From: Flavobacteriales bacterium
Lineage (GTDB): Bacteria; Bacteroidota; Bacteroidia; NORP154
Assembly: GCA_012965955.1 (NCBI GenBank)
Contig: DTRK01000111.1
Coordinates: forward strand, 559-33,571
Direction of reading: 5' to 3'
DNA: 33,013 bases
Under the pieces are notes generated by a model. That model was not told the DNA's origin and did no database searches. It worked only from the letters and a program-made list of their open reading frames with translations. Both the position numbers and the translations under genes were made by a program. Below, piece by piece: positions 2,793-33,013 of this stretch; positions within the stretch are counted from its first letter, which is position 1; the number at the start of each line of letters is the position of its first letter.

Positions 2793-2836
2793 GATCTTTC
2801 AGGCCGGAAATTTAGAAAATTACGCTGAACACTTTA

Positions 2837-2867
2837 TTGTAGGGGTGAAATAAATGTTATAAATTTG
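2837..2867 (+). promoter_or_regulatory. Bacteroidota-type promoter of the initiator tRNA
   Basis: TTG (2837-2839), 20-bp spacer, TAAATTTG (2860-2867), matching the known -33 TTG / -7 TAnnTTTG consensus; tRNA begins 9 nt downstream. Confidence 0.6.
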
Positions 2868-2875
2868 CAGCACAT

Positions 2876-2948
<73 letters not shown>

Positions 2949-2957
2949 CAAGGAAAA

Positions 2958-2984
2958 ACCTTGCACGAAGTGCAGGGTTTTTTT
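2958..2984 (+). terminator. Rho-independent terminator after tRNA
   Basis: ACCTTGCAC-GAA-GTGCAGGGT stem followed by TTTTTTT. Confidence 0.85.
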
Positions 2985-3034
2985 ATGCCCATAAAAAAAT
3001 CCCATGATCGCGTAGCGAGGGAGGTTTTCCTTGT

Positions 3035-3189
3035 TAAGCCCCCCCTACTCAGGACCAATTCCAGCGCGAAGCGATGGAATTGAATCCTGTCCCCTTGGGA
3101 CACGTGGGGGGACACTTTTTCGAATTTGCTCCCATTTTTCATAGATTTACTTACCTTATCTCCTTAATCCACCAATCCACTATTTCGCC
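3035..3189. repeat. Direct repeat copy 1 (hairpin-rich, pairs with 8469-8618)
   Basis: Near identity with 8469-8600: '...TCAGGACCAATT..GCGAAG.GATGGAATTGAATCCTGTCCCC..GGGACACGTGGGGGGACACTTTTTC.AATTTGCTCCCATTTTTCATAGATTTACTTA...', both ending just before an ATGAA. Confidence 0.9.
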
Positions 3190-3328: not shown

Positions 3329-4312
3329 ATGCACAAACTACTACTTACAATTTCGTGTTGCATATTTGCTGTATCTATTCAAGCGCAAAGCAATATTAAC
3401 TTGATACTGAATCACAAATTCGATGGAGTTCCATTGGTCTATAATGATAATTATACGGATGATCAAGGAAGAGCAGTGAATTTCAATAGAGTGCAGTATT
3501 ATCTTTCATCTTTGGTTATTACGCATGATGGAGGACAAACGACTCCGCTAACTGATGTTTATGTGCTGACCAATGGAAACGTCAGCTATTACCCCTTGGG
3601 CTCATTTGCTATTGACAGCGTTGAATCTATAAAGCTTGATCTGGGTGTTGACGCCGTGGCAAACGCTGGAAACACCAGTAACTATCCGTCTTCGCATCCC
3701 CTTGGTCCACAATCTCCGGTGATGGATTGGAATTGGCCATCTGGATATTTCTTTCTGGTCTTAAATGGACAGGTTGATAGTGATGCTGATAGCACGCCAG
3801 ATAAAGTTTTTGAGATGAACGCAATTGGGGATGTTATGTTAACGAATGTTGAAGTGACCGTTAGCTCTGGTGCCGTAGGCAATACGCTGGATATCGCCAT
3901 GGATGTTCATGTAGATAATTGGATAAACAACATTGATTTGACATCTGTTTCGGTAGATCATAGTAGTAGTAATACCAATCAAGAGATGTGTCAAAATACG
4001 GATACCTATACTGTTTTTGAAGGCATTGAGCAGGCACCTCTTGTGGGAGTGGAGAAGGCTAAGGGACCACGTTCATATGTAACCGCTGATTATACAATGG
4101 CCTATGCACCTGTTCTCAATTACAATTTATCTAGCAAGCTGCCCAGTACTCTCGTGATTACCGATGCTTCGGGAAAGCGGGTTATTGAAGAAGCTAATGT
4201 TGGATTTGAGGGAAATTATTTCATCCTGAAGGAGCTGAAGAGTGGGGTATACTTTGCCACCTTCAGTAATGAGAAGGAGATTTTAACGTGTAAGTTCCTT
4301 GTTCAGAGATAG
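3329..4312 (+). CDS. MbnP-like copper-associated protein with T9SS C-terminal sorting domain
   Basis: Signal peptide; MbnP-like signatures 'VQYYLSSLVI', 'LDLGVDAVANAG', 'HPLGPQSPVMDWNWPSGYFFLVLNG'; tail 'LVITDASGKRVIEE...LKSGVYFATFSNEKEILTCKFLVQR' is type-A T9SS sorting domain-like. Confidence 0.75.
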   Translation: MHKLLLTISCCIFAVSIQAQSNINLILNHKFDGVPLVYNDNYTDDQGRAVNFNRVQYYLSSLVITHDGGQTTPLTDVYVLTNGNVSYYPLGSFAIDSVESIKLDLGVDAVANAGNTSNYPSSHPLGPQSPVMDWNWPSGYFFLVLNGQVDSDADSTPDKVFEMNAIGDVMLTNVEVTVSSGAVGNTLDIAMDVHVDNWINNIDLTSVSVDHSSSNTNQEMCQNTDTYTVFEGIEQAPLVGVEKAKGPRSYVTADYTMAYAPVLNYNLSSKLPSTLVITDASGKRVIEEANVGFEGNYFILKELKSGVYFATFSNEKEILTCKFLVQR

Positions 4313-5292
4313 TGAAGAAGCTCTTTGCTCTCTCTTTAATATTCTTATTGGCAATTGGGATTCTGTCTTTTTCAGAGGACCCAATCCTGAAAATACCTCT
4401 GGGTTTTCCCTCGCCACCGATACCGGAAGACAATCAGTTAACTAACTCTAGAATTGCCCTTGGCAAGAAGCTATTCTTTGATAAGGTAATGTCTAGGGAC
4501 TCCACTTTGTCATGTGCTACTTGTCACAAACCTGAATATGCTTTTACGGATCGACTTGAAAAGGCTGTTGGAATACGGAATCAGCAAGTAAGTAGAAACG
4601 CTCCAACACTTGCTAACGTTGTTTACCTTGATAAGTTACTCCTAGATGCGGTAAACCCGTCATTAGAGGCCCAGGTTATGGTACCTATTCACGAGAAGAA
4701 TGAATTTGACTTTCATATCATCCTTGTGGCAGAAAGGATGAAAAAAAATCCGGAATATGTTAAACTCTGTGAGGACGCGTACCAATCTGAGCCAAATCCT
4801 TATGCCATCACGCATTCTATCGCTTGTTATGAGCGGACTCTTATCAGTGGCAATTCCGCTTATGATCAATTCAAATATCAAGGAGATAGTACAGCCTTAA
4901 ACTCAGAAGAGAGGAGAGGAATGAGTTTATTTTTTAATGAACTATACTGTGCCAGCTGTCACGGTGGATTTAATTTTTCTGATCAAGCGCTGACAAACAA
5001 CGGCCTCTATGAATCATATGCCGACTCAGGAAGGATTCGACTCACAGGTTTGGAAACAGACAGGGCCGTTTTCAGAGTGCCAACGCTAAGGAATATTGCC
5101 GTTACTTATCCATATATGCACGACGGGGGCGTGGAGTCTTTGGATGAAGTGATTGAACATTACATGTCAGGTGGGAAGACTCATCCGAACAAAAGTTCTA
5201 TTATTCAACCTTTCCAACTCACAAAGGAAAAGAAGGAAGATTTGATAGCGTTCTTACATTCACTCACCGATTCCTCTTTTATATCCCACTAG
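4312..5292 (+). CDS. MbnH-like diheme cytochrome c peroxidase
   Basis: Two CxxCH haem motifs (CATCH, CASCH), 'RNAPTLANV', 'VPTLRNIAVTYPYMHDGGV'; GTG start overlaps upstream stop (TAGTG), so probably translationally coupled. Confidence 0.85.
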   Translation: MKKLFALSLIFLLAIGILSFSEDPILKIPLGFPSPPIPEDNQLTNSRIALGKKLFFDKVMSRDSTLSCATCHKPEYAFTDRLEKAVGIRNQQVSRNAPTLANVVYLDKLLLDAVNPSLEAQVMVPIHEKNEFDFHIILVAERMKKNPEYVKLCEDAYQSEPNPYAITHSIACYERTLISGNSAYDQFKYQGDSTALNSEERRGMSLFFNELYCASCHGGFNFSDQALTNNGLYESYADSGRIRLTGLETDRAVFRVPTLRNIAVTYPYMHDGGVESLDEVIEHYMSGGKTHPNKSSIIQPFQLTKEKKEDLIAFLHSLTDSSFISH

Positions 5293-5302
5293 AGCTGGGT
5301 AG

Positions 5303-7024
5303 CTATATTTTCAGGAATTTACCGCTATACTGTTTGTTGATCGATCTCACTACAACTGTATATAGTCCGGCTTGGAGCTTCGATACATCAAATGAAACTT
5401 GAAGATTATCTGGAGTATGAAGGTAAGATTGCACTTTTTGCCCTAGTATGTTATACACTTCGACTTCAAGTGTTTGAACGCTATCAAAGCGCCCTGACCC
5501 TATGCTGATAATGTCCGAACTTGGATTGGGAGATACAGAAATCTGTTGAGTTCCCATGATTTCTGGGACCGAGACAGCGTTGGTATCAATTACCAGAAAG
5601 TGTCCCATCATTCCTTCATCTTCATGATGAAGAATATGACAATGGAACATATAAGGATCGGTAGGATGTGCAAATCTTTCAAATTGCGTAATAAATCGTA
5701 CTGTATCTCCGGGCATCACAAGAACCACATCTTTTTGACCGTGTTGTCCTGGTGCTGGTGGGTTTCCATTTACATCTAAAACGTAGAACTGGATATCGTG
5801 AATATGGAACGGATGCGCCAACTCTGTCTGATTGATCAATCTCCAAATTTCAACTTCATCCAGAAAGCAAGTAACGTTGATAGAATCCATGTCAAAGGGA
5901 GCGTTATTGATCAGGAAAGGGCCCTCCACAGGAGATGCAAACAAGGTATTCGTATCGAGCGTAAAGACCATATCTCTCGAAACATCAACATCCGCTTCAT
6001 TCCAAGGATTAAGTGGAGCAAATGAGCTGGGGATACTGGTCACGGGGTTTGTTGTCGGTGCCACCACATCCAAGCGCAGCAAATTGTAGTCATTGCCATT
6101 AAGGGGGTTAGAATAATAACCTGGAAGCGTATCGCTTACTCCGGCAACTGGTCCGCCAATTATGCCATCTTCAAGCTCAGAGGCAAAACTCTTGAGGAAT
6201 ATGCTTTGCCCCTGTAGAGCAGATAGGTCGATCAATATCTCTGCTCGTTCGCCGGTAGAAAGTCTTAAACGTGTCATGCTCACCGGTTGGTCTAACAATC
6301 CTCCATCCGTTGCAATTTGATAGAATGGAAGATCCCCTTCCAGACCAAATAAGAAGCTGCGAGAAGATGCTGTGGCCAGTAACCTTAACCTGATAACTTG
6401 GGAAGGTACTTCCACGTAGGGATCTATGGTCCCGTTGATGAGTATGGTACTGTCGTAGGAATTAAAAGAAGCGAGCTGGTAAAAAGCGTCAAAAGATTTG
6501 GACTGCACGATCAGTGGAATGTCGTCAACCCCATATGTTCTGGGTAAATCATAAGTGGATTCTATACTGTCGCGAATAATAATCATCCCCGCTAGTCCCT
6601 TGGTCACCTGAAGCTCTGTATTCTCATGAAGATGTGGATGAAACCAATATGTGGCGGCATCATTACGCACTTTGAAGCTGGGGCTCCATGTTGTGCCAGG
6701 GTCAATGACTTGATGTGGTCCACCATCATTAGCAGCACTGATGTGAAATCCGTGCCAGTGCATAGTGGTGCTGATATTCAGATCATTTATTACGTTGAGA
6801 GTAATGCTATCTCCTTTGTTCATAAGCAAAACTGGCGCAAGGATATCTCCATTCATGCCATAAGTGTCGGTGACGTTCGGTGGAAAAAATACCTTGCTAC
6901 TATATGCAACGGTTAGGTTATAGATCGGTCCGTTAAGAGTATCGGGGATGTAAAGAGGATTTTGGGCCTTGGCAGTGACCAACGTGATAAGCAATACCAA
7001 AGATGGAATTATGGACCTGGTCAT
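5303..7024 (-). CDS. Multicopper oxidase (CueO/bilirubin-oxidase-like) with T9SS sorting domain
   Basis: Copper-site motifs MHWHGFHIS, YWFHPHLHENT, HPFHIHDIQF, MFHCHILHHEDEGMMGHF; C-terminal 'ISVSPNPSSDIISI...LQAGLYTVVVRSINKQYSGKFLKI'. Confidence 0.9.
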   Translation of the reverse strand: MTRSIIPSLVLLITLVTAKAQNPLYIPDTLNGPIYNLTVAYSSKVFFPPNVTDTYGMNGDILAPVLLMNKGDSITLNVINDLNISTTMHWHGFHISAANDGGPHQVIDPGTTWSPSFKVRNDAATYWFHPHLHENTELQVTKGLAGMIIIRDSIESTYDLPRTYGVDDIPLIVQSKSFDAFYQLASFNSYDSTILINGTIDPYVEVPSQVIRLRLLATASSRSFLFGLEGDLPFYQIATDGGLLDQPVSMTRLRLSTGERAEILIDLSALQGQSIFLKSFASELEDGIIGGPVAGVSDTLPGYYSNPLNGNDYNLLRLDVVAPTTNPVTSIPSSFAPLNPWNEADVDVSRDMVFTLDTNTLFASPVEGPFLINNAPFDMDSINVTCFLDEVEIWRLINQTELAHPFHIHDIQFYVLDVNGNPPAPGQHGQKDVVLVMPGDTVRFITQFERFAHPTDPYMFHCHILHHEDEGMMGHFLVIDTNAVSVPEIMGTQQISVSPNPSSDIISIGSGRFDSVQTLEVEVYNILGQKVQSYLHTPDNLQVSFDVSKLQAGLYTVVVRSINKQYSGKFLKI

Positions 7025-7063
7025 TGTCAGAACTGAATCAAAACGATATATATCCGGAAGGTT

Positions 7064-7834
7064 CTATCGTAGAACAGTGAACTTATGCTGCTCCATAATT
7101 CCATCGGATTTAATAGTTAGAAAATATACTCCGTTGGCCAAGGTGGAGATATTGATCATTTCATTGATTTCTCGACCTTCGACAATTGATTGAAGACGCC
7201 CTTGAGAATCGATGATCTGAATCTGAAAATCATTGGGTTTGGCAGAAGCAAATTGTACTCGAAGGGCATCCCTCGCAGGATTAGGACTTAATTGTAATAC
7301 CGGTGAAGTGCTTGAATATTCACCAACACCAGGCAGAACCCCGTAAAAGTTCCTTATAGCATTTGCTATCGTATTTGTATCATTTGCTCCGAAGCCAGTG
7401 TTGTTAAGAAAAAGTACTTCATGTGTTGCGCCGGCTACCACCACCACAGTAGGCATAGCCATCCCTCCATAGTATGCAACCTGATAAGCCCCAGAGTCGA
7501 AGGGAACCGAGTTATATCCATTAGCGGTTACCCAATTAGAAATATCGGTACATGAATAGGCATCGTCGAAACCAAAATGATAAAAGCGTACTTGACCAGG
7601 AAACTCTATATCCATTTGGTCATGCATCTCATCCAATTTATCTCCTGCGGTGATACAAGAGCCACAGGAAAGCATGAAGAATTCAATGATTACAACATTA
7701 TTCGAATCTAAAGTTGCAAATAGGTTGTGATAAATACCATTGCAATCGTCGGTGGTAAAATCCAGTGCTGTAGTCTGAGCCTTTGCTATTAGCATGATCA
7801 TTAACAAGAACAATGTGATTGCTATCCTCTTCAT
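7064..7834 (-). CDS. Thioredoxin-fold protein with T9SS sorting domain
   Basis: 'NVVIIEFFMLSCGSCITAGDKLDEMHDQM' CxxC motif, 'AMPTVVVVAG' cis-Pro-like loop; tail 'LQLSPNPARDALRV...LANGVYFLTIKSDGIMEQHKFTVLR'. 39-bp gap to the MCO gene suggests an operon. Confidence 0.75.
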   Translation of the reverse strand: MKRIAITLFLLMIMLIAKAQTTALDFTTDDCNGIYHNLFATLDSNNVVIIEFFMLSCGSCITAGDKLDEMHDQMDIEFPGQVRFYHFGFDDAYSCTDISNWVTANGYNSVPFDSGAYQVAYYGGMAMPTVVVVAGATHEVLFLNNTGFGANDTNTIANAIRNFYGVLPGVGEYSSTSPVLQLSPNPARDALRVQFASAKPNDFQIQIIDSQGRLQSIVEGREINEMINISTLANGVYFLTIKSDGIMEQHKFTVLR

Positions 7835-9518: not shown

Positions 9519-11846
9519 TTATTTGCTCAATACAAATCGTTTTGAACGGACCTGTTCCCCGTTCTCTATTTTAATAAGGTAAACACCGCTTTCAACATCA
9601 TTAAGTTCCATAGAGTATTTTGAGTCTTTGGTATTACCCATCCTGACAATGCGGCCAAGCAGGTCTGTGACCGTTATTGCGACATTACCGTGAAAACTCT
9701 CATGAAGCTCGATGTTCAGTACCCCGTTTGTAGGATTGGGATAGACCACAAAGTTGTGGCCTTCAGAAAATTCTATGCCAGGTAGAATGTTTTCTGGTTC
9801 TATCCTGACAACGGTGTTAAGCGTTTCATTTACATACCAAATATACCCCTGCGTCCCAACTTTTAACCCGCATATCCCTTGCTGCCCGGTTTGGATCCTG
9901 CCCAGTTCAATGGCACTCGTACCCGAAATATCATAAATGACAATATCTCCAGTCGAATGATCACTTACCACAAGGTGATTGCCTACGACATCTATCCCAC
10001 TCGGCTCCGTTAAGCCGGAATCAATTAATACCTCCCATGTTACATTCACTACTGCTTTATGATCGAGAAAAGACTCACTTGGTGAGGACAGATTAGAACC
10101 CAGTGTTCCGGAGTTGATATCAAGCCTTAGGACCCGGTCATTTCCAACATCGACAATATATAGCCAGCCTGTTGTTTTATCCAGAACCAGGTGGCTGGGG
10201 ATCTCCCCGTCTCTCAGTACATCTATTTCGGTATACCGTCTTACTATTCCATCCGTGTGATCTGAATTGCCCGGGCCGTGGTCATCCATGAAATTATACT
10301 GCGCAATATCTTGGTTGTAACCGTCATAAACCCAAAAAATATTGTCTGCTTCATGGGCTATGCCCATGCAATTGGGGCTTTGATGCAGCATATCTAAATG
10401 ACTGCCGTTTCCACCTGAAGGCATGGCAAATATGCTTAGGTCACTTGACCAGAGCGTTGGGCCTGCAAAAATACCGGGAGGCGTATTGTGATTAGCATCC
10501 TGAATAGCGGTGGAGGTTGCAAAATTTATGTTGTCATCACTGAAAGCGATGGCTGAGGGCAATGACATGAAATGCCATGCATTTCCGTCTTCCCGATACT
10601 CTGAAGTTTGATTTGTCTCTCCCGGATTTTCGAACCTGATTACACTCCCCCCTGAACCCTCAGTTCCTTTATTGATAACCCATAAGGCATTACTTATCGG
10701 GTGGAAGTCAAGATCCTGCGGAGTATTGACCTGATCCGATATTGTTCCGATAGTTGTATATGTTTCTGTACCAATAAGGTAACTGTTAATTATGTCGGGA
10801 CTGGACCCAGGATCTCCTATAATAACGTCTTTAGTTAATTCATCATTTGCAGTATTTTGATCAGGATTTCCATTAATGTTACTGGCCCATACTTTCAAAT
10901 TATAGCTTCCGGTTGTGGCAGCGTTCCAGGTCGTGGCGTGGTTAAAAGTATAACTGGCGAGCGAAGCGATATTGACACTGCTCACAGTAGCAGTAACAGT
11001 ACTCCCGTTATCAATAGAATAATTAATATCAAAATCAGTGATGGTAGCAGATCCCAGGTTGTTTATTGTGCCGTTAACGGTAAATGGCGCATCGGCTAAA
11101 AGCAAGTAAGGAGAAACATCAATGCTGGTTAAATCTATGTCGAAATTGGGCTGGGTACCGTAGATAAACTCATAGTAAACGTTATCAGCATAATTATTAC
11201 CCGATCCCGAAATAGGAGTAATTGATGGCGAACCCGCCACAGAGATAGCGGTTGATCCGTCAATCTGCACTCCAATCGTCACGCCACCACTTGTACCGGT
11301 AGAATGACGCTGGTCTACAATATATATTTTATCCGTGCTTTCTTCCAGTACAATTGACCAATACGAAAACGCACCTCCTAATGTATAAGAAGAAAAGAAC
11401 ACCCAATGCTGCCTGTTCGGTGTGTTGCCAAATGTTTTGATGACAATATTGTCATTTGAACCGGTCCCTTCCACGCCCCAGACACAAATTGAATTATCAG
11501 GAATATTAGTGGAAGGCAAGCTGGTATTGGCATAAGGTGGCACAGTGGCAGCAGAAAGGTCAAAGGTCAGCACACCAGAGGTTGACACCTTGTATTGAGT
11601 AACAACGCCTCCGTTAAAGGAAAAAGAAAACGGGATGGATTGTGCGCTTGTCCATGCTGGTGTAGAGGCTGAACCTGCATGTATGGAAGTCCATGATCCG
11701 TCCAGGGTACTTATCGTAGCTTCATCGCCAGTGTTCAACCCTCCTGGATTCCCCGGGAAATCCAAATAAGGGAGGTAATAATATTGCGCGAACACCGTAG
11801 CTGTACTTAAGCATAATATGGCAAATACTGCAAATAACTTCTTCAT
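9519..11846 (-). CDS. Secreted NHL/beta-propeller-like protein with CARDB-like domain and T9SS sorting domain
   Basis: Signal peptide; 'GWLYIVDVGNDRVLRLDINSGTLG' NHL-like blades; 'GGNGSHLDMLHQSPNCMGIAHE'; tail 'FVVYPNPTNGVLNIEL...VESGVYLIKIENGEQVRSKRFVLSK'. Confidence 0.8.
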   Translation of the reverse strand: MKKLFAVFAILCLSTATVFAQYYYLPYLDFPGNPGGLNTGDEATISTLDGSWTSIHAGSASTPAWTSAQSIPFSFSFNGGVVTQYKVSTSGVLTFDLSAATVPPYANTSLPSTNIPDNSICVWGVEGTGSNDNIVIKTFGNTPNRQHWVFFSSYTLGGAFSYWSIVLEESTDKIYIVDQRHSTGTSGGVTIGVQIDGSTAISVAGSPSITPISGSGNNYADNVYYEFIYGTQPNFDIDLTSIDVSPYLLLADAPFTVNGTINNLGSATITDFDINYSIDNGSTVTATVSSVNIASLASYTFNHATTWNAATTGSYNLKVWASNINGNPDQNTANDELTKDVIIGDPGSSPDIINSYLIGTETYTTIGTISDQVNTPQDLDFHPISNALWVINKGTEGSGGSVIRFENPGETNQTSEYREDGNAWHFMSLPSAIAFSDDNINFATSTAIQDANHNTPPGIFAGPTLWSSDLSIFAMPSGGNGSHLDMLHQSPNCMGIAHEADNIFWVYDGYNQDIAQYNFMDDHGPGNSDHTDGIVRRYTEIDVLRDGEIPSHLVLDKTTGWLYIVDVGNDRVLRLDINSGTLGSNLSSPSESFLDHKAVVNVTWEVLIDSGLTEPSGIDVVGNHLVVSDHSTGDIVIYDISGTSAIELGRIQTGQQGICGLKVGTQGYIWYVNETLNTVVRIEPENILPGIEFSEGHNFVVYPNPTNGVLNIELHESFHGNVAITVTDLLGRIVRMGNTKDSKYSMELNDVESGVYLIKIENGEQVRSKRFVLSK

Positions 11847-12058: not shown

Positions 12059-14143
12059 ATGAAGAGAATTACCCTTTTAATCGGAATAATTTGTTGTAGC
12101 CTGTCATACACCAATGCCCAGTGCCCGGGAGGACAGGTAGAAGTAACGATAGATGTCGCTGTGGACCAGTACGGGTATGAAGTCTATTGGGAGCTGCTTC
12201 CCAATGGCAACAACTGCGGAAACGGAACAATAGCGTCTGGAGGAAATACCAATGTAGGATGCGGTGGGGGTGGAGCCCAGAACCAGAACATGAGTGGGTA
12301 TGCCAACAACAGCACCAACAATGAAGGCCCCTGGTGTTTAACTGATGGTTCAGATTATGACATCTTCTTCGTCGATGATTGGGCTGATGGAGGTGCAACA
12401 TTTACAGTAAATATTGAAGGTTTCCCGGTTTATACATTTACTGGAACTGGGTCAGACGAAACATTTACGTTCACTGCTTCAGGGCCACCTGCCCTTGACG
12501 CTTCTGTTATTAGCATTGAGGTATACGATTTTGTGGAGGCGGGTAATATTTCGATTACCGGTGACATAAAGAACTTGGGTACAACGACTATCACATCCTT
12601 TGATCTCAGTTACTCCATTGATAATGGTGCTGCGGTTACCGAAAACATTAGCGCGTTGAGTCTCGCTCCCTTCGCAACCTATGAATTTGATCATAGTACA
12701 ACCTGGACTGCAAATACAGCTGCTACTTACTCCTTAAAGGTGTGGGTGAACAATGTTAATGGAGCAGGTGATGATGATGATATATCAAATGACGATATGA
12801 CCAAGACAGTCACTATTATTGAACCAATTCCTAATATCATGTCCAGCTACACGTCTGATACGATAACGCTGTCATATGACATGATCGGCACGAGTAGCGA
12901 CCAGGTGAGCAAACCTCAGGATCTAGACTTTCATCCCAATGGAGAACTCTGGGTAGTCAACAGGGGAATCGGAGGTGACGTTAGCGGTGGTGGTGGAACT
13001 ACAGTTACGTTCACTGATCCGGGCGGAACGGGTCAATCCTCTTTGTATAGAAAGGACCAGAATTCCAAACATTTTATGAATTCGCCGACAGGTGTTGCAT
13101 TCTCACTAAACGGCAATTTCTCAACATCTCCAGGTATGTATGACGCAAATTTTGGTAGTGGAAGCCCATTTACAGGACCCGCGCTTTGGTCAAGTGATCC
13201 TTTGGTTTATGCACAACCTTCCGGCGGGAATGGCAGTCATCTGGACATGCTGCACGCCAGTTCGTATGCGATGGGGATAGCGCATGAAACCGGAAATGTA
13301 TTCTGGATCTTTGATGGAAACAACAATGATATTGTAAGGTATGACTTCGCGTCTGACCATGGGCCTGGAAATACTGATCATGGTGATGGAAAGATAAGAC
13401 GCTTCACGGGAATGTCCGTCAGTCGAATTGATGACGTCATCGGATCGCACATGGAACTCCACAAGAGCTCAGGTTGGTTGTATATCGTTGATAATGGTAA
13501 CCAACGTGTGCTGCGTTTGGATATTAACTCTGGAAGTGTTGGCGGCACACCATCCTATGGTCCATGGGAAACCCTTGCTGAATACAAGAATGTAGACGGA
13601 GCTACCTGGGAAACTGTCGTTGATTCAGGGCTGGTTGAGCCGTCTGGCATAGATGTAGTTGATGATAGAATGATCGTTACGGATCACGCTACTGGAGACA
13701 TCATCATTTATGATATCTCTTCGATGCCTGCCGTGGAAATTAAGCGCATTGTAACAGGCAATCCTGGAATAATGGGTACGGTAATCGGACCTGAAGGTCG
13801 GATATGGTATGTTAATTATACAATGAATGAGGTCATTAAGATTGAGCCAAGCGATATAATTACTACACCACCGCCATTGGCAATTGATGAGGCCAATAGC
13901 GGTGGGAAATTTTCGATGTATCCCAATCCATCCAATGGGCAGGTAACCATTAACATTGGGTCAGTACAATCGAGCACGGCACTGCTTATTGTACAGGACA
14001 TGTTTGGCAAGACGGTATTTGAATCCAGGGCTAAGAATGGATCTATGACTCTGAATCTGTCGGATTATGCTGCGGGGATATTCATGATCAGTTTAGAGGA
14101 CAACGGCTCTCTAACCACTGAAAGGCTGGTAATTCAGAAATAA
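12059..14143 (+). CDS. Secreted NHL/beta-propeller-like protein with CARDB-like domain and T9SS sorting domain (paralog of 9519-11846)
   Basis: 'QVSKPQDLDFHPNGELWVVNRG', 'GGNGSHLDMLHASSYAMGIAHE', 'SDHGPGNTDHGDGKIRRF'; tail 'FSMYPNPSNGQVTINI...AAGIFMISLEDNGSLTTERLVIQK'. Confidence 0.8.
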   Translation: MKRITLLIGIICCSLSYTNAQCPGGQVEVTIDVAVDQYGYEVYWELLPNGNNCGNGTIASGGNTNVGCGGGGAQNQNMSGYANNSTNNEGPWCLTDGSDYDIFFVDDWADGGATFTVNIEGFPVYTFTGTGSDETFTFTASGPPALDASVISIEVYDFVEAGNISITGDIKNLGTTTITSFDLSYSIDNGAAVTENISALSLAPFATYEFDHSTTWTANTAATYSLKVWVNNVNGAGDDDDISNDDMTKTVTIIEPIPNIMSSYTSDTITLSYDMIGTSSDQVSKPQDLDFHPNGELWVVNRGIGGDVSGGGGTTVTFTDPGGTGQSSLYRKDQNSKHFMNSPTGVAFSLNGNFSTSPGMYDANFGSGSPFTGPALWSSDPLVYAQPSGGNGSHLDMLHASSYAMGIAHETGNVFWIFDGNNNDIVRYDFASDHGPGNTDHGDGKIRRFTGMSVSRIDDVIGSHMELHKSSGWLYIVDNGNQRVLRLDINSGSVGGTPSYGPWETLAEYKNVDGATWETVVDSGLVEPSGIDVVDDRMIVTDHATGDIIIYDISSMPAVEIKRIVTGNPGIMGTVIGPEGRIWYVNYTMNEVIKIEPSDIITTPPPLAIDEANSGGKFSMYPNPSNGQVTINIGSVQSSTALLIVQDMFGKTVFESRAKNGSMTLNLSDYAAGIFMISLEDNGSLTTERLVIQK

Positions 14144-21117: not shown

Positions 21118-21245
21118 GGATTTAAAAGTAGAAATAATATTAGTTTTGTTATCCAATTGTGCATTTTTTTTTAACTTAGCGTTGCTGTTTGGACCAAAAG
21201 TTAATTTATATTGTATTATTGCATTGCAAGAGCCGCACAACTTAC

Positions 21246-22220
21246 ATGTTAAAAAAACCTTTCGTTTCTGTTGTTATTCTGATGTTGCTGGCATGCTGCG
21301 ATGTTGCGTATGCACAGGATCCTCAGTTTACGCAATTCTATGCGAATCCGCTGTATTTGAACCCAGCATTTGCCGGTACTGCTCGGTGTCCTAGATTGAT
21401 CATGAATTATAGAAATGAGTGGCCGGCTCTTTCAGGCACTTTTGTTACATATAGCGTTTCCTACGACCAACACGTTGATGGACTTCAAGGTGGATTGGGA
21501 GTAGTGATTCTTCAGGACCGTGCCGGTGAAGGTACGTTGAATACTACAACGGGAAATATTTTGTACTCTTATCAAATGAATATCAATAGAAACTTCTCTG
21601 TCAAAGCGGGGTTTCAGGTTGGTTATATGCAGAAGAAGATTGACTGGGAGAAACTCACCTTTGGAGATATGATTGATCCGAGATACGGGTTCATCTATGA
21701 GACAGCGGAGACCAAGGTAAATGATACCAAGGGAAATTTGGATCTATCTGCTGGAGTTCTCGGATTTTCTAAGCAGTATTTCCTGGGAGTAGCCGTGCAT
21801 CACCTAACTCAGCCATATGAGGGCTTTGTTAATCCTAATGAGGCGAGATTGCCAATGAAGATCACGGCACATGCGGGGGCTATTATACCGTTGGATGAGA
21901 CAGGAGAAGAGTCCAACGTATCGCCGAACATATTATATCAGAAGCAGCAGGACTTCCAGCAGATCAACCTGGGTATCTATATTAACAAAGGGCCAATAAT
22001 AGGGGGTCTTTGGTATCGTCAGGCGGAGAAGAATTCAGACGCATTCATTGCTCTGGTAGGATTTCACGAAGGAATGGTGAAATTTGGGTATAGTTATGAC
22101 ATTACACTATCGAAATTGAGTAATGCTACTTCAGGTTCACATGAATTCTCATTTGCCCTCCAGTTTGAATGTAGACCGAAGAAAAGAAAATTCAGAGCAA
22201 TAAGTTGTCCGTCATTCTAG
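21246..22220 (+). CDS. PorP/SprF family type IX secretion membrane protein
   Basis: 'DPQFTQFYANPLYLNPAFAGTARCPRLIMNYRNEWPALSGTFVTYSVSYDQHVDGLQGGLGV'. Confidence 0.93.
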   Translation: MLKKPFVSVVILMLLACCDVAYAQDPQFTQFYANPLYLNPAFAGTARCPRLIMNYRNEWPALSGTFVTYSVSYDQHVDGLQGGLGVVILQDRAGEGTLNTTTGNILYSYQMNINRNFSVKAGFQVGYMQKKIDWEKLTFGDMIDPRYGFIYETAETKVNDTKGNLDLSAGVLGFSKQYFLGVAVHHLTQPYEGFVNPNEARLPMKITAHAGAIIPLDETGEESNVSPNILYQKQQDFQQINLGIYINKGPIIGGLWYRQAEKNSDAFIALVGFHEGMVKFGYSYDITLSKLSNATSGSHEFSFALQFECRPKKRKFRAISCPSF

Positions 22221-22291
22221 TTTTATTGTGGTAACCTTTTTGAATGATTTTCGTTATACCGGAATCTATCTGTGAAATTAAATCTGATATT

Positions 22292-23785
22292 ATGATGAAA
22301 AAAGCCAATATACACGTCTATACAGCGCTATGCTTAGTTGGACTCTTAGTATTAGCTTCGTGTGGTAAGGAGTTATCTTCGATGACAGGTTGGGCGTATA
22401 ATGAGCCAAACAACGGGGGATTTCAAGTTGACCTATATATGGGGCAGGAAACCGGCCCAGGCTTGATTTTAGTTCAAGGTGGCACCTTCATGATGGGCCG
22501 TGTTGAGCAAGACGTATTCTACGATTGGAACAATATCCCGAGACGAGTGACGGTATCATCTTTCTATATGGATGAGACAGAAGTGGCCAACGTGCATTAT
22601 AGGGAATATCTACACTGGGTGGGCAGGGTATTCGCGCTTGATTATCCAGAGGTATATAAAAGAGCATTACCTGACACACTGGTTTGGAGATCAAAATTGG
22701 CTTATAATGAGCCGTATGTAGAATTGTATTTAAGGCACCCAGCATACCAGTGGTACCCGGTAGTTGGAGTTAACTGGGTTCAGGCAGCAGAATTCTGCGC
22801 CTGGCGTACAGATAGAGTTAATGAGTATATTCTGATACGTGAGGGGCTTCTGGATGTAAATCCTAACCAGACAGCTGATGATAACTTCAACACGGATGCT
22901 TATCTGGCTGGTCAGTATGAAGGACTCGTTATTACAGACCTTCCTGATCTGGATCCCAATAAAGATACTCGAAAGGTACGCATGGAAGACGGAATATTCC
23001 TTCCGAGGTATAGACTCCCAACAGAGGCAGAGTGGGAATTTGCTGCTCTTGGATTGATCGGTAACACATATTTTGAGCGTGTAACTGAAAGGAGAATCTA
23101 TCCATGGAATGGCCACTACGTAAGAAATGACCACGTTAAGGAGCTTGGTAGGATGATGGCTAACTACACACGTGGACGTGGAGATCAAATGGGTGTTGCC
23201 GGGCAGTTAAACGACAATGCTGATATAACATCGCCTGTTTATGCCTATTGGCCAAACAACTACGGCCTCTACAATATGGCTGGAAATGTTAGTGAGTGGG
23301 TCATGGATGTATACCGTCCGCTTACCATAGAGGATGCTGATGACTTCCGATCGTTTAGGGGAAATGTCTTTAAAACTCAGATGAGGGATGAAGAAGGAAT
23401 TATCGCTGAAAAAGATACACTGGGACGAATCATTTGGAGAGACGTAACGGAAGAAGAGAATCTTGGCAAGATTCCGGCCACCAACCGAAGAAACTATACA
23501 ACTGCGGATAACATATCTTATCTCGATGGCGATAAGGTTTCCAGTATTCGTTACGGTGAGGATGTTGAGCCTGAAAACATGAAGAAGATTATGTATGAAT
23601 CTACTGGTGAATTCCCTACGACTTTGGTTGACGATCGCGCACACGTCTATAAGGGTGCCTCATGGAAGGATAGGGCATACTGGATGGGACCTGGAACACG
23701 TCGATTCATGGATATGGAGCAAGAAACATCTTATCTTGGTTTCAGATGTGCGATGGTCAGAGTTGGAAGCCCGGTAGGATTCTAA
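22292..23785 (+). CDS. gldJ: Gliding-motility lipoprotein GldJ-like (FGE-sulfatase/SUMF1 domain)
   Basis: Lipobox LASC; 'GPGLILVQGGTFMMGRVEQDVFYDWNNIPRRVTVSSFYMDETEVANVHY', 'RLPTEAEWEFAALG'; adjacent to murF as in other Bacteroidota. Confidence 0.82.
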   Translation: MMKKANIHVYTALCLVGLLVLASCGKELSSMTGWAYNEPNNGGFQVDLYMGQETGPGLILVQGGTFMMGRVEQDVFYDWNNIPRRVTVSSFYMDETEVANVHYREYLHWVGRVFALDYPEVYKRALPDTLVWRSKLAYNEPYVELYLRHPAYQWYPVVGVNWVQAAEFCAWRTDRVNEYILIREGLLDVNPNQTADDNFNTDAYLAGQYEGLVITDLPDLDPNKDTRKVRMEDGIFLPRYRLPTEAEWEFAALGLIGNTYFERVTERRIYPWNGHYVRNDHVKELGRMMANYTRGRGDQMGVAGQLNDNADITSPVYAYWPNNYGLYNMAGNVSEWVMDVYRPLTIEDADDFRSFRGNVFKTQMRDEEGIIAEKDTLGRIIWRDVTEEENLGKIPATNRRNYTTADNISYLDGDKVSSIRYGEDVEPENMKKIMYESTGEFPTTLVDDRAHVYKGASWKDRAYWMGPGTRRFMDMEQETSYLGFRCAMVRVGSPVGF

Positions 23786-28710: not shown

Positions 28711-30099
28711 ATGTTTGTTTTGATGGTGGTAATATTTGTGATTGGCTATACGGCAATCGCTTTTGAGCATCCAATCAAGATAGATAAGGCCGCTTCCGCA
28801 CTCCTGATAGGTGTGCTTACCTGGACAATATTTCTTTTTGGAGCGGATGAAATTCTAGCGGGCAGTGAACATTTCGCCAAAGAGTTTTTTGATTGGTTAA
28901 AGCATAACCCTAAAGAATCAGAATCAATAGAATCAATACGCCTTTTTATTTATAAACATGAGGTGGGTCATCACCTGAATGACATAGCTCAGATACTCTT
29001 CTTTTTACTCGGTGCCATGACCATCGTTGAGCTGATAGATGCCCACGAAGGTTTTGCTGTTATCACGGATAGGATCAATACGGATAACCGGGTAAAGCTG
29101 ATGTGGATCCTTTCAATCCTTACGTTCTTTTTCTCAGCTGCTTTGGACAACCTAACAACCTCTATTGTGATGGTTGCATTGATCAGGAAGTTGTTGAAGG
29201 AAAAGGAAGAACGCTGGTTTTTCTGTGGGATGATCATACTGGCGGCCAATTCTGGCGGGGCATGGTCACCGATCGGTGACATAACGACCATTATGTTGTG
29301 GATAGACGGTCAGGTCACAGCAGGTAACATTATCACTTCGATCTTTATACCCAGTGTTGTGTGCATGGTTGTACCGCTGCTCTACCTGTCTTTCACGAAG
29401 CAAGGGACGGTAGTAAGGGCTTTGGGAAGAATGGATATAGAACACATGAAAAACCCAACAACAGCGTTTGAACGCAATCTCGTCTTTTTTATGGGCGTTG
29501 CAGGATTGTTGTTTGTGCCAGTCTTTAAAACAGTCTCTCATTTACCCCCGTTTATGGGCATGATGCTTAGTTTGGGTGTATTGTGGGTTACCACGGAAAT
29601 ACTGCACAGAAAGAAGAACGTTGAGCAAAAGTCGGGATTGTCGGTGATTGGTGTCCTGCAAAAAGTGGATGTGTCCACAGTTTATTTTTTCCTTGGAATT
29701 TTATTGGCGGTAAGCAGCCTGCAGTCGGCTGGGCACCTGGGCATATTGGCCACATGGTTGGATGGCGTTGTGGGTCATATCTATGGAATTAATTTGATTA
29801 TTGGCGCATTATCGGCGATTGTGGATAACGTTCCACTGGTTGCAGGCGCTATGGGCATGTATGAACTGGGGCCACTTGTGCAAGGTAGCGCATACCCGGT
29901 AGATCATGAATTTTGGGAATTTCTGGCTTACTGCGCTGGTACCGGTGGGTCTATGTTGATAATTGGTTCAGCTGCTGGTGTTGCCGTCATGGGCATGGAA
30001 AGAATTGACTTTATCTGGTATGTCAAGAAGATTTCGCTTCTTGCAGCGATGGGTTACCTGGCAGGTGCTGCCACCTACATTCTGATGAATCCGTATTAA
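28711..30099 (+). CDS. nhaD: NhaD-type Na+/H+ antiporter
   Basis: 'SAALDNLTTSIVMVALIRKLL', 'AANSGGAWSPIGDITTIMLWI', 'DNVPLVAGAMGMY'. Confidence 0.88.
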   Translation: MFVLMVVIFVIGYTAIAFEHPIKIDKAASALLIGVLTWTIFLFGADEILAGSEHFAKEFFDWLKHNPKESESIESIRLFIYKHEVGHHLNDIAQILFFLLGAMTIVELIDAHEGFAVITDRINTDNRVKLMWILSILTFFFSAALDNLTTSIVMVALIRKLLKEKEERWFFCGMIILAANSGGAWSPIGDITTIMLWIDGQVTAGNIITSIFIPSVVCMVVPLLYLSFTKQGTVVRALGRMDIEHMKNPTTAFERNLVFFMGVAGLLFVPVFKTVSHLPPFMGMMLSLGVLWVTTEILHRKKNVEQKSGLSVIGVLQKVDVSTVYFFLGILLAVSSLQSAGHLGILATWLDGVVGHIYGINLIIGALSAIVDNVPLVAGAMGMYELGPLVQGSAYPVDHEFWEFLAYCAGTGGSMLIIGSAAGVAVMGMERIDFIWYVKKISLLAAMGYLAGAATYILMNPY

Positions 30100-31403
30100 G
30101 GATTATTACCCAGCGCTATGTACAGGCTGTACTGCGCCTTATTGTATTGGGTAACGGCATCTATCAAATCGAGCTCCGCTTCCATCATTTGTTCCTGTGC
30201 CCTGATCACTTCCAGTGGTATTGCCGTTCCGAGACGCTGTCTTTCTATACTTTGATCCAATCCTTCGCTCGCAAACGCGACAGAGGACTCAGCCAATTTC
30301 ATCCTGACCTTTGAAGTTTGAAGATTCATTTGTTCATCCTGGATCTCCCGGCGTATCTCATTTTTAGCCCGGTCCACATTGATCCCCGCAATTCGGATGC
30401 GCGCGTCAAAGGCTTTTTTTGTGCCGCCGTAGAACAATGCACCAAGAGGAATTTCCCATTTGGCACCTACATAGTAGTTGAGCGCATTGCCTTCAGGGCT
30501 GAAATAAGGCCCGTATGGCCCATTGTTCAAGCCAAAATTGATATTGGGCAATAGTAAACCTGTGGTTTGAGATTTGCGGTCGATCTTAAAACCTTCAATC
30601 CTACTATTAAAAACCATTAGCTCCGGCCGTTTATCGAAGGCGCTGGTGAATTCAACCTTGGATGTGTCCACCAAATTAACCGGTACCAGCAGCGAATCAG
30701 AGACAAGCAGCTGGACATTATCAGAAATATTCAATAGCTCCAGCAGCTCGTGAGAGTTTCTTTGTATTGCTGAACGGGCCTTACTGACCTCTATTTTTAT
30801 ATGGTTTAAATTGGATTTTGCCAGAAGCAGGTCGGATTTATACGTGATTCCCTGCTCCACTTGTAGCGCAATTTGGGTAACAATATCCTCCGACTTAAGT
30901 GCTACTTTTTCCAGCGCTACAAGCTTACTTTGAGCAGCACTCAAATCATAAAAAGACTGTACTGCCTGTACATTGGCCCTATTTTGTTCCACCATTTTCT
31001 CATATCCAACCGACTCTACATTTTGTTTCGCAGCCAGATACGAATACACTGCATTTCCCAAATCCCACTCAGAAGTTACATTGACCCCGGCCCAAAAACT
31101 GTTCTTGTCCACATCCACAAAAGTCCCATCGGTCGCCTGGGCGATGCCCTTGTAGGACATCAAAAGCACACCTGGACTAATAGTCGGAATCATCCATTCC
31201 TTAGCCTCCAGCTGTTGAGCCTTAGCCAGTTCATACCGCGCGTTTATTTCAGCTACATCCAGATGGCTGGAGCCAGCCAATTTAAGCACGGTCTTTATGT
31301 CAATAGGCATTATTTTATCCTGGGCCTGTACTGAATTTGCCAGTCTGGCAATCAGCAATAAGGCGATAACCGCTTTTGCCATATTTTCATTAAACCCTCT
31401 CAA
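30096..31403 (-). CDS. TolC-family outer membrane efflux protein
   Basis: OEP-type coiled-coil repeats 'LAKSNLNHIKIEVSKARSAIQRNSHELLELLNI', 'GTAIPLEVIRAQEQMMEAELDLIDAVTQYNKAQYSLYIALG'. Confidence 0.88.
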   Translation of the reverse strand: MRGFNENMAKAVIALLLIARLANSVQAQDKIMPIDIKTVLKLAGSSHLDVAEINARYELAKAQQLEAKEWMIPTISPGVLLMSYKGIAQATDGTFVDVDKNSFWAGVNVTSEWDLGNAVYSYLAAKQNVESVGYEKMVEQNRANVQAVQSFYDLSAAQSKLVALEKVALKSEDIVTQIALQVEQGITYKSDLLLAKSNLNHIKIEVSKARSAIQRNSHELLELLNISDNVQLLVSDSLLVPVNLVDTSKVEFTSAFDKRPELMVFNSRIEGFKIDRKSQTTGLLLPNINFGLNNGPYGPYFSPEGNALNYYVGAKWEIPLGALFYGGTKKAFDARIRIAGINVDRAKNEIRREIQDEQMNLQTSKVRMKLAESSVAFASEGLDQSIERQRLGTAIPLEVIRAQEQMMEAELDLIDAVTQYNKAQYSLYIALGNNP

Positions 31404-32510
31404 TTATCTTTCTGTCTTTAGCATTGCTTCCACTTGCTGCCCTGTTTTCACCAAGCTTTTCCCCTGTATAATTACCATGGAAGTGGAATCAAGATTTGTA
31501 TTGAGGACTTCGAAATAATCTTTGTTAGTCAGTCCTCGTCGTAAAGGTGTCCTTACAACCTTGTCATCGATCACCTCCAGCACAAATAGTTCATCCTGAA
31601 ACATATACTGACATTGAACAGGAAGGGATAGCACGTTTTCCCGGCTCACCAGCATCATGACTACCTTGGCATACATCCCAGGCTTTATCACACCCTTTTT
31701 ATTGTCAATGTCTACTTCTGTTTGCATGGTTTTGGAAGCTACATCCAATACCCCCGCAGTACGGCTTACTTGAGCGGTAAACGCTTCACCTGGAAGTTCT
31801 GGGAACGTAACTTTAACCGTGTCCCCAATCTTGATAATACCGGCGTCACTCTCAGGAAGTGGAATCGTCAATCGGATTGGGTCCAGCTGTTGCAGTTCTA
31901 CAATAGGCGAAGTACCGGTATTGGTTATTCCGCTTTGTACCAGGGCCCCGTTATCTACAAATCGCTGTGTGATCACTCCGCTGAACGGTGCTTTCACCCG
32001 CAGAAAGGACTGGCGATCCTGAATTGCCCCAAGCTCAGCCAGAGCCGTTAAATAAGCAGCCTCTGCTTCCTCAAGCACTTGGAGTGGGGTCAGGTCAGGA
32101 GTTTGTTCAGCTGTGGATTTGAGCCTGTCATAAGTGGATTTTTTGACTTCCAAAAGTGCAGCAGCCTTCTGGTACATCCTGTTTAATTCAGGATTGTCCA
32201 GCTCCGCAATAATCTGCCCCGCAACCACATAATCGCCAATGTCTCTATTTATTTCCTTCACATAACCGCCTTCCATCGCATGAACCATCACCTGTTGATT
32301 GGCCATAGCTGTTCCCACAATATGCAGCTCTGCATTGAAAGATCTCCTGGATGGATTAATGACCTCCACTGTTCTAGTCTTGAGCGTCTCGACTTCTGCA
32401 GCTGTTTCAGCATCGTCCGCTGGTGTCGAGGTACATGCCTCTAACAAGCATAGCGAACCAAGTGCCAGGTAAGAAGTTATTTTGAAATTCAGTTTATTGG
32501 ATATTCTCAT
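31404..32510 (-). CDS. RND efflux periplasmic adaptor (HlyD/MFP) lipoprotein
   Basis: Lipobox LEAC; 'VHAMEGGYVKEINRDIGDYVVAGQIIAELDN', 'RVKAPFSGVITQRFVDNGALV'. Confidence 0.92.
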   Translation of the reverse strand: MRISNKLNFKITSYLALGSLCLLEACTSTPADDAETAAEVETLKTRTVEVINPSRRSFNAELHIVGTAMANQQVMVHAMEGGYVKEINRDIGDYVVAGQIIAELDNPELNRMYQKAAALLEVKKSTYDRLKSTAEQTPDLTPLQVLEEAEAAYLTALAELGAIQDRQSFLRVKAPFSGVITQRFVDNGALVQSGITNTGTSPIVELQQLDPIRLTIPLPESDAGIIKIGDTVKVTFPELPGEAFTAQVSRTAGVLDVASKTMQTEVDIDNKKGVIKPGMYAKVVMMLVSRENVLSLPVQCQYMFQDELFVLEVIDDKVVRTPLRRGLTNKDYFEVLNTNLDSTSMVIIQGKSLVKTGQQVEAMLKTER

Positions 32511-33013
32511 CGTGATCTGGTAAAATCGTATTCTTTGCGATATAAGAATACAGAATTGGAATAATGTACAATGTTAAAAGTGTTGCCATAAATGTTCCTC
32601 CGATTACTGCAATTGCCAGTGGTACATTTGATTCTGAACCGTGACTTAAAGCCAATGCGGTGGGCAATAGGGCGAAGATTGTGGTACCGGCCGTCATGAG
32701 TATTGGTCGGTACCTATCAGCTGAACCCGTAATAATCGCATCACTCTTGGCCATGCCTTCCTTCATCAATGCGTTAATCCGGTCCACCAAAATGTTTCCG
32801 TACGATACTGCGATACCGACCATCATGATAATGCCCATGATAGACTGTACGCTCAGGTAGGTATTAGTCGCCCACATCAACAAGGCTACCCCAATAATTC
32901 CCAGTGGAAATGCCAAAATAATAATTAGAGGAAGCCGGAATGACCTGAACAGTGGAACGATGATTAAAAATGCTAATACAATGGCTAATCCCAGTCCCAA
33001 TCCAAGATCACCA
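32494..33013 (-). CDS. RND efflux transporter permease, C-terminal part (5' end beyond right edge)
   Basis: 'FPLGIIGVALLMWATNTYLSVQSIMGIIMMVGIAVSYGNILVDRIN', 'DRYRPILMTAGTTIFALLPTAL'; AcrB-family. Confidence 0.92.
   Translation of the reverse strand, partial: GDLGLGLGLAIVLAFLIIVPLFRSFRLPLIIILAFPLGIIGVALLMWATNTYLSVQSIMGIIMMVGIAVSYGNILVDRINALMKEGMAKSDAIITGSADRYRPILMTAGTTIFALLPTALALSHGSESNVPLAIAVIGGTFMATLLTLYIIPILYSYIAKNTILPDHDENIQ

Follow-up and report, generated by a model that had tools for sequence, protein, structure and literature searches.

Do four adjacent genes in a Flavobacteriales contig, three of which encode products ending in T9SS sorting tails, make up a single system for handling copper? 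A first-pass annotation of the 33,013-nucleotide stretch of DNA analysed here (the window) proposed that they do, naming MbnP, its partner MbnH, a multicopper oxidase (MCO) and a thioredoxin-fold protein (Trx) as one copper module. The stronger and more general finding, which is absent from that annotation, is a clade of tailed MbnPs with its own MbnH lineage.

The four genes and their families

The open reading frame list confirms four adjacent genes at 3329–7834, and their coordinates and strands bear out an arrangement in two convergent operons. MbnP and MbnH lie on the + strand and overlap by 1 base, Trx and MCO lie on the − strand with 39 bases between them, and the gap between the operons is about 10 bases. 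We found no promoter or regulatory motif shared by the two. The family names also hold, i.e., PF20243 for MbnP, TIGR04039 as the best model for MbnH, Cu-oxidase domains for MCO and a thioredoxin fold for Trx. Elsewhere in the window, the ORF at 2834–3142 (− strand) overlies a tRNA-Met gene (2876–2949, + strand) and is probably spurious, and the open-ended ORF at 3–1745 (− strand) contains repeats which by appearance resemble those of the SprB gliding adhesin.

MbnP (3329..4312, + strand, 327 aa) is an MbnP domain protein with a C-terminal T9SS type A sorting domain. It scores 82.6 bits against PF20243 (cut-off 27), and within the PDB its predicted structure (pLDDT 89.9, 48-sequence alignment) most closely matches the solved MbnP 7l6g (E 2.6e-8, probability 1.00), with chains of this Methylosinus trichosporium MbnP filling the top six places. 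Profile and fold searches were needed to see the relationship, as a phmmer search against the PDB returned nothing. Against the equivalog model TIGR04052 (MbnP_like_WxW), the window protein reaches 22.4 bits, below the cut-off of 140, which other Bacteroidota members tested also miss.

The candidate Trp for modification by MbnH lies in the WxW motif W134-N-W136 (3728..3736, + strand), which is conserved in the family: of the 129 aligned MbnPs, 99% have W134 and 86% have W136. Two nearby positions have changed. Residue 133 is Asp in the window MbnP and mostly His in other tailed MbnPs, and residue 164 is Asn, against His in 91% of the family, a conserved feature that to our knowledge is not established as essential. 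The MbnP of locus L126 (genome G004, Flavobacteriales MAG UWMA-0041, the same record as L221) has likewise lost both His, with R at 164. H194 is present in the window MbnP, in L126 and in L130.

MbnH (4312..5292, + strand, 326 aa) is an MbnH-like diheme c-type protein with no sorting tail. Its best NCBIfam model is TIGR04039 ("MbnH family di-heme enzyme"), with a score of 284.5 bits that misses the cut-off of 362.85; three MbnH relatives in tailed loci score 224–287. Profile models support MbnP (PF20243 above its cut-off) and, for the partner, the bCcP/MauG superfamily, with TIGR04039 the best model but below its own cut-off. The top PDB entry is 6e1c ("Di-heme enzyme"), and residue alignment identifies two CxxCH motifs, Glu131, and Tyr284 at the MauG-type 6c-heme ligand position (the Met position of bCcP). 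The heme-bridging Trp is absent, with LLLDAV at that position.

Two CxxCH hemes and a Tyr ligand are shared with MauG and BthA of the bCcP/MauG superfamily. The MauG substrate is methylamine dehydrogenase, unlike the one predicted for the window MbnH, and we know of no MbnP-like partner for BthA. BthA resembles the window MbnH in having no inter-heme Trp: Ser replaces Trp93 between its hemes, yet bis-Fe(IV) forms (PMC6405878), so a Trp-less MbnH may still be catalytic. The near-infrared bis-Fe(IV) feature of BthA requires the 6c-heme Tyr, and work cited in the same paper describes this requirement for MauG as well (PMC6405878).

The window pair is like known MbnP/MbnH pairs (PF20243, TIGR04052/TIGR04039) in its 7l6g fold, its WxW motif and its adjacent diheme enzyme with a 6c-heme Tyr. 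It is unlike them in the T9SS tail on MbnP, the missing heme-bridging Trp, the replacement of two conserved His and scores below both curated TIGR cut-offs, and no methanobactin genes were noticed in the window.

MCO (5303..7024, − strand, 573 aa) has three Cu-oxidase Pfam domains (PF07732, PF07731, PF00394) and all four copper motifs, namely HWHG at residue 89, WFHPHLH at 127, HPFHIH at 404 and HCHILHHEDEGMM at 461. Its structural matches include CueO (among the best), laccase and bilirubin oxidase. It had been called CueO-type, and the shared Cu-oxidase domains and T1/T2/T3 motifs make it a multicopper oxidase, but the CueO label goes too far: the protein scores 353.6 bits against the CueO model NF008205 (cut-off 525), carries a T9SS tail, and has no Met-rich loop near the T1 site (6 Met in residues 301–485, with no cluster except the HEDEGMM motif). 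In alignments with CueO, the stretch before HPFHIH differs and the extra CueO copper ligands are not evident. Given this divergent stretch and the missing loop, the sequence lends no support to cuprous oxidase activity. As a side observation, the window's own genome (G000; contigs C278, C266 and C74) contains at least two more T9SS-tailed paralogues of MCO (L214, L215) and an MCO fragment with its tail end cut off (L216).

Trx (7064..7834, − strand, 256 aa) matched no Pfam family above cut-off besides its sorting tail. A fold search with its moderately confident model (pLDDT 75) matched ResA, TlpA and DsbE (E about 1e-8), and the protein has CGSC together with Pro128 at the cis-Pro position. 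C31, C57xxC60, C95 and P128 are invariant in 11 relatives. Trx therefore resembles TlpA/ResA oxidoreductases in fold, CxxC and cis-Pro, and differs from them in its T9SS tail, the extra invariant C31 and C95 and the lack of a Pfam match; its closer relatives also differ in having a conserved downstream MCO-CTD gene.

Sorting tails and the clade of tailed MbnPs

All three annotated sorting tails score above the 23-bit cut-off of TIGR04183. Those of MCO (aa 497–572, 5309..5536, − strand) and Trx (aa 183–254, 7073..7288, − strand) reach 36.6 and 40.2 bits, with PF18962 scores of 46.4 and 48.5 bits, respectively. The MbnP tail (aa 264–326, 4118..4306, + strand) is the weakest at 32.9 bits and misses the PF18962 cut-off (19.9 vs 27); the predicted structure shows it as a beta domain of its own at the C-terminus, and the nearest relative of the window MbnP is also tailed (TIGR04183 29.0 bits). 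N-terminal signals of the three proteins were judged by eye.

The genome contains SprA (split over two contigs) and PorU (1392 bits vs a cut-off of 420), and the window itself encodes a PorP/SprF family T9SS membrane protein (21189..22220, + strand; TIGR03519 243.9 bits vs 90.55) and the gliding-motility/T9SS lipoprotein GldJ (22244..23785, + strand; TIGR03524 464.4 bits vs 458.2), which makes T9SS export of MbnP, MCO and Trx plausible from sequence. TIGR04183 detects no tail in the window MbnH, nor did any of 122 surveyed MbnHs have one. As attachment of c-type heme is periplasmic, the missing tail leads us to place MbnH in the periplasm. For tail-less MbnPs, a lipoprotein export signal was considered as a general route and rejected as too weak: an LES-like motif, itself a crude pattern, occurs in 13/67 MbnP and 4/76 MbnH lipoproteins.

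Sorting tails occur in 20 of 129 surveyed MbnPs, a figure that is not a prevalence because the phylum sample favoured long MbnP frames at the fetching stage, regions were partial and genomes incomplete. Among the relatives, for which nearly all matches were fetched, tailed MbnPs occur in seven genomes, including the window's own. When the tail columns are left out and the tree is built from the MbnP domain only, the 20 tailed proteins all group in a single clade (support 0.972), of which L145, with no tail detected, is also a member. The tailed proteins are spread over many families of the phylum.

A matching clade (support 0.942) unites 15 MbnHs from tailed loci with the MbnH of L145, and its members have no inter-heme Trp. 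Both trees were made with FastTree and midpoint rooting. Across tailed loci, this Trp is missing in 16/29 MbnHs, and the Tyr at the bCcP Met ligand position is kept in 29/29. Tandem MbnH genes are found in 11/18 tailed loci and in 9/103 of the remaining loci (Fisher p 2.4e-6, relatedness ignored), and the second MbnH of such pairs retains FFWDGR. We considered loss of the Trp as a sign of decay and rejected this, as the loss is common to the whole partner clade and is known in BthA.

Tailed MbnPs make up a single coherent and apparently undescribed branch within a known family. With their MbnHs they form a clade that equivalog-level annotation misses, because those models score its members below cut-off. 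In the open literature searched, no relevant paper dealt with Bacteroidota MbnPs or linked a T9SS multicopper oxidase to copper.

Distribution of the two gene pairs

PF20243 matches occur in 38/60 relatives and in 97/396 genomes drawn from the phylum. We scored 120 regions around MbnP matches for the four families (121 loci with the window), each extending about 6 kb either side, with many of the genomes incomplete. Most of the 121 loci have MbnH beside MbnP, almost invariably on the same strand and downstream of it; in 18 it is out of range or absent. The MbnP-MbnH pair is therefore widespread in Bacteroidota. Besides the window, MCO relatives were seen in four loci and Trx in one. A search of viral contigs and plasmids confirmed no relatives.

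Trx followed by MCO on one strand occurs in G052, G055, G009, G032 and G246 and in the named genomes L222 (the same contig stretch as G052) and L224–L227; one gene lies between the two in G032, and G246 has room for one. The pair, with both members tailed, is conserved in several families, usually with no MbnP nearby, and the tailed pairs of L222, L224–L227, L201, L203 and L204 span Flavobacteriia, Chitinophagaceae, Sphingobacteriales and other Bacteroidota MAGs. As far as we found, it has no name. More distant tailed thioredoxins (L228–L232) have no MCO; a TonB-dependent-receptor-like gene lies directly upstream of the one in L228, and in L229 and L232 the upstream gene is of about the same size.

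Across the 121 loci and the named relatives, the full four-gene set was found in the window and L126 alone, where full-length identity is 61% for MbnP, 70% for MCO and 58% for Trx. A universal four-gene module is rejected on this count of two genera. The neighbourhood survey thus places the four genes together in a single further genus of this family, and not generally across Bacteroidota. Because MbnP-MbnH and Trx-MCO are each widespread without the other, we read the set as two units meeting in one family, a local arrangement, and the claim of one copper module is left weakly supported. A different meeting is seen in G009 and G055, where MbnP-MbnH, a tailed YHYH protein and another MCO-CTD are all encoded on one strand. 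Here MbnP has no tail, and the order is MbnP, MbnH, tailed YHYH protein, tailed MCO (L079 2573–7444, and L075, which is cut within MCO).

A candidate fifth partner, on suggestive grounds, is a T9SS-tailed protein with a CARDB domain and an NHL-like propeller region (9519..11846, − strand; tail 54.8 bits). A second tailed NHL-like propeller protein (12059..14143, + strand) lies divergent to it, matches the same profile and is 44% identical to it. The family recurs in 4/18 tailed-MbnP loci vs 0/103 other MbnP loci (p 3.6e-4, uncorrected), including L126, where it is next to Trx, L122, and L119, where it is inside the MbnP-MbnH cluster of G007. Genome-wide its distribution is broader: it is found in 10/60 relatives, and the 396 phylum genomes yield 11 strong hits with the window's own genome set aside. 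An MbnP is present in the majority of these genomes, though not in every one, which keeps the link suggestive.

Copper, export and competing readings

In the known pairs, MbnH converts a Trp of MbnP into kynurenine, and MbnP itself binds copper. Genome G007 has five tailed MbnPs (L119, L124, L125), several of them in copper-efflux islands: tailed MbnP-MbnH genes adjoin a P-type ATPase of the copper type (TIGR01511 579 bits vs 397), and the islands also hold a CopA-type MCO, a CusB-like adaptor, DUF3347 proteins, HYC_CC_PP and an outer-membrane efflux protein. Family membership and these islands make a copper role for tailed MbnPs plausible. The case is weakest for the window MbnP, in which WxW is kept and D133 and N164 replace His, beside an MCO with no Met-rich loop. 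No copper genes lie next to the four-gene locus within the window. About 25 kb from MbnP, TolC, an RND adaptor and the C-terminus of an RND pump are encoded at 30096–33012 (− strand); this pump is not clearly copper-specific (CusA/CzcA 97 bits, multidrug RND 114 bits).

The first-pass annotation described the parts as usually periplasmic, which overlooks MopE (SACCP) and CorA, surface or secreted proteins of methanotrophs that hold Cu(I) through kynurenine and are each encoded with a diheme bCcP/MauG-type partner, CorB for CorA (PMC3912023). The window MbnP would share with them its location, its diheme partner and, as the likely chemistry, a Trp-derived copper ligand.

We propose, at about even chances, that the substrate MbnP and not the enzyme MbnH is routed to the cell surface, with Trx-MCO as an independent cargo pair alongside. 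MbnP would cross the inner membrane with its sorting tail on, and the tail-less diheme MbnH would oxidise the WxW Trp in the periplasm (to kynurenine in known pairs, and we infer the same here). Folded and modified, MbnP would then be exported by the T9SS and act as a surface or released metal site, probably for copper, in the manner of methanotroph MopE and CorA. The products of the Trx-MCO operon, placed beside MbnP-MbnH in one family only, would be separate T9SS cargo able to act on copper and thiol redox in the same compartment. We count in favour the tails on three proteins, the 0/122 tailed MbnHs vs 20/129 tailed MbnPs, the T9SS genes, the MbnP fold, the adjacent MbnH, both clades, the retained CxxCH, Tyr and Glu131, the copper genes of G007 and the MopE/CorA precedent. 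D133 and N164, the absence of the heme-bridging Trp and of the Met-rich loop, the lack of adjacent copper genes and of a shared promoter motif, and the presence of all four genes in two genomes only count against it. A broader history is conceivable, if doubtful: tailed MbnP may have arisen once in Bacteroidota and co-diversified with a Trp-less MbnH, its ligand installed in the periplasm before folded export, with ligands rebuilt in a sub-branch (D133, N164, H194) and a secreted redox assembly formed with tailed Trx, MCO and beta-propeller.

The two operons of T9SS cargo might also be unrelated, having become neighbours by chance and stayed so in one family through common descent and not a joint task, which we rate slightly below an even prospect. 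Trx-MCO does occur with no MbnP nearby (G052, G055, G009, G032, G246, L224–L227), nearly all 121 loci have MbnP-MbnH with no MCO or Trx, and the convergent operons share no promoter motif. However, synteny of the four genes has been kept between two genera at 58–70% identity, an MCO-CTD meets MbnP-MbnH twice in different layouts (the one-operon version of G009/G055 being joined by the tailed YHYH protein), and a HYC_CC_PP protein is present both in a Trx-MCO locus and in tailed-MbnP loci.

The function of a surface-routed pair could also differ from copper acquisition. The modified Trp might be a redox cofactor or a site for another metal, with MCO a laccase-like oxidase of organics; we think this rather unlikely. 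The two lost His, the Trp-less MbnH, the MCO with no Met-rich loop and with laccase and bilirubin-oxidase matches, and the absence of copper genes beside the locus would all fit, but copper-efflux islands surround tailed MbnPs in G007, and the known MbnP is a copper-binding protein. So are its relatives in function, MopE and CorA (PMC3912023). Should copper be the metal, the exported proteins might instead defend the cell by binding and oxidising Cu(I) outside it and so lowering toxicity. The only copper-gene neighbours seen (in G007) are efflux genes and MCO has the fold of copper-tolerance oxidases, yet copper represses MopE and CorA, and CorA has been proposed to acquire it (PMC3912023); we consider defence improbable.

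If surface routing of MbnP is correct, the copper chemistry of methanotroph surfaces would exist in a large and common phylum via a different export route. The tailed clade would then offer a clean test of whether the T9SS exports proteins with an enzyme-installed ligand, and a test case for how an MbnH functions when it lacks the inter-heme Trp.
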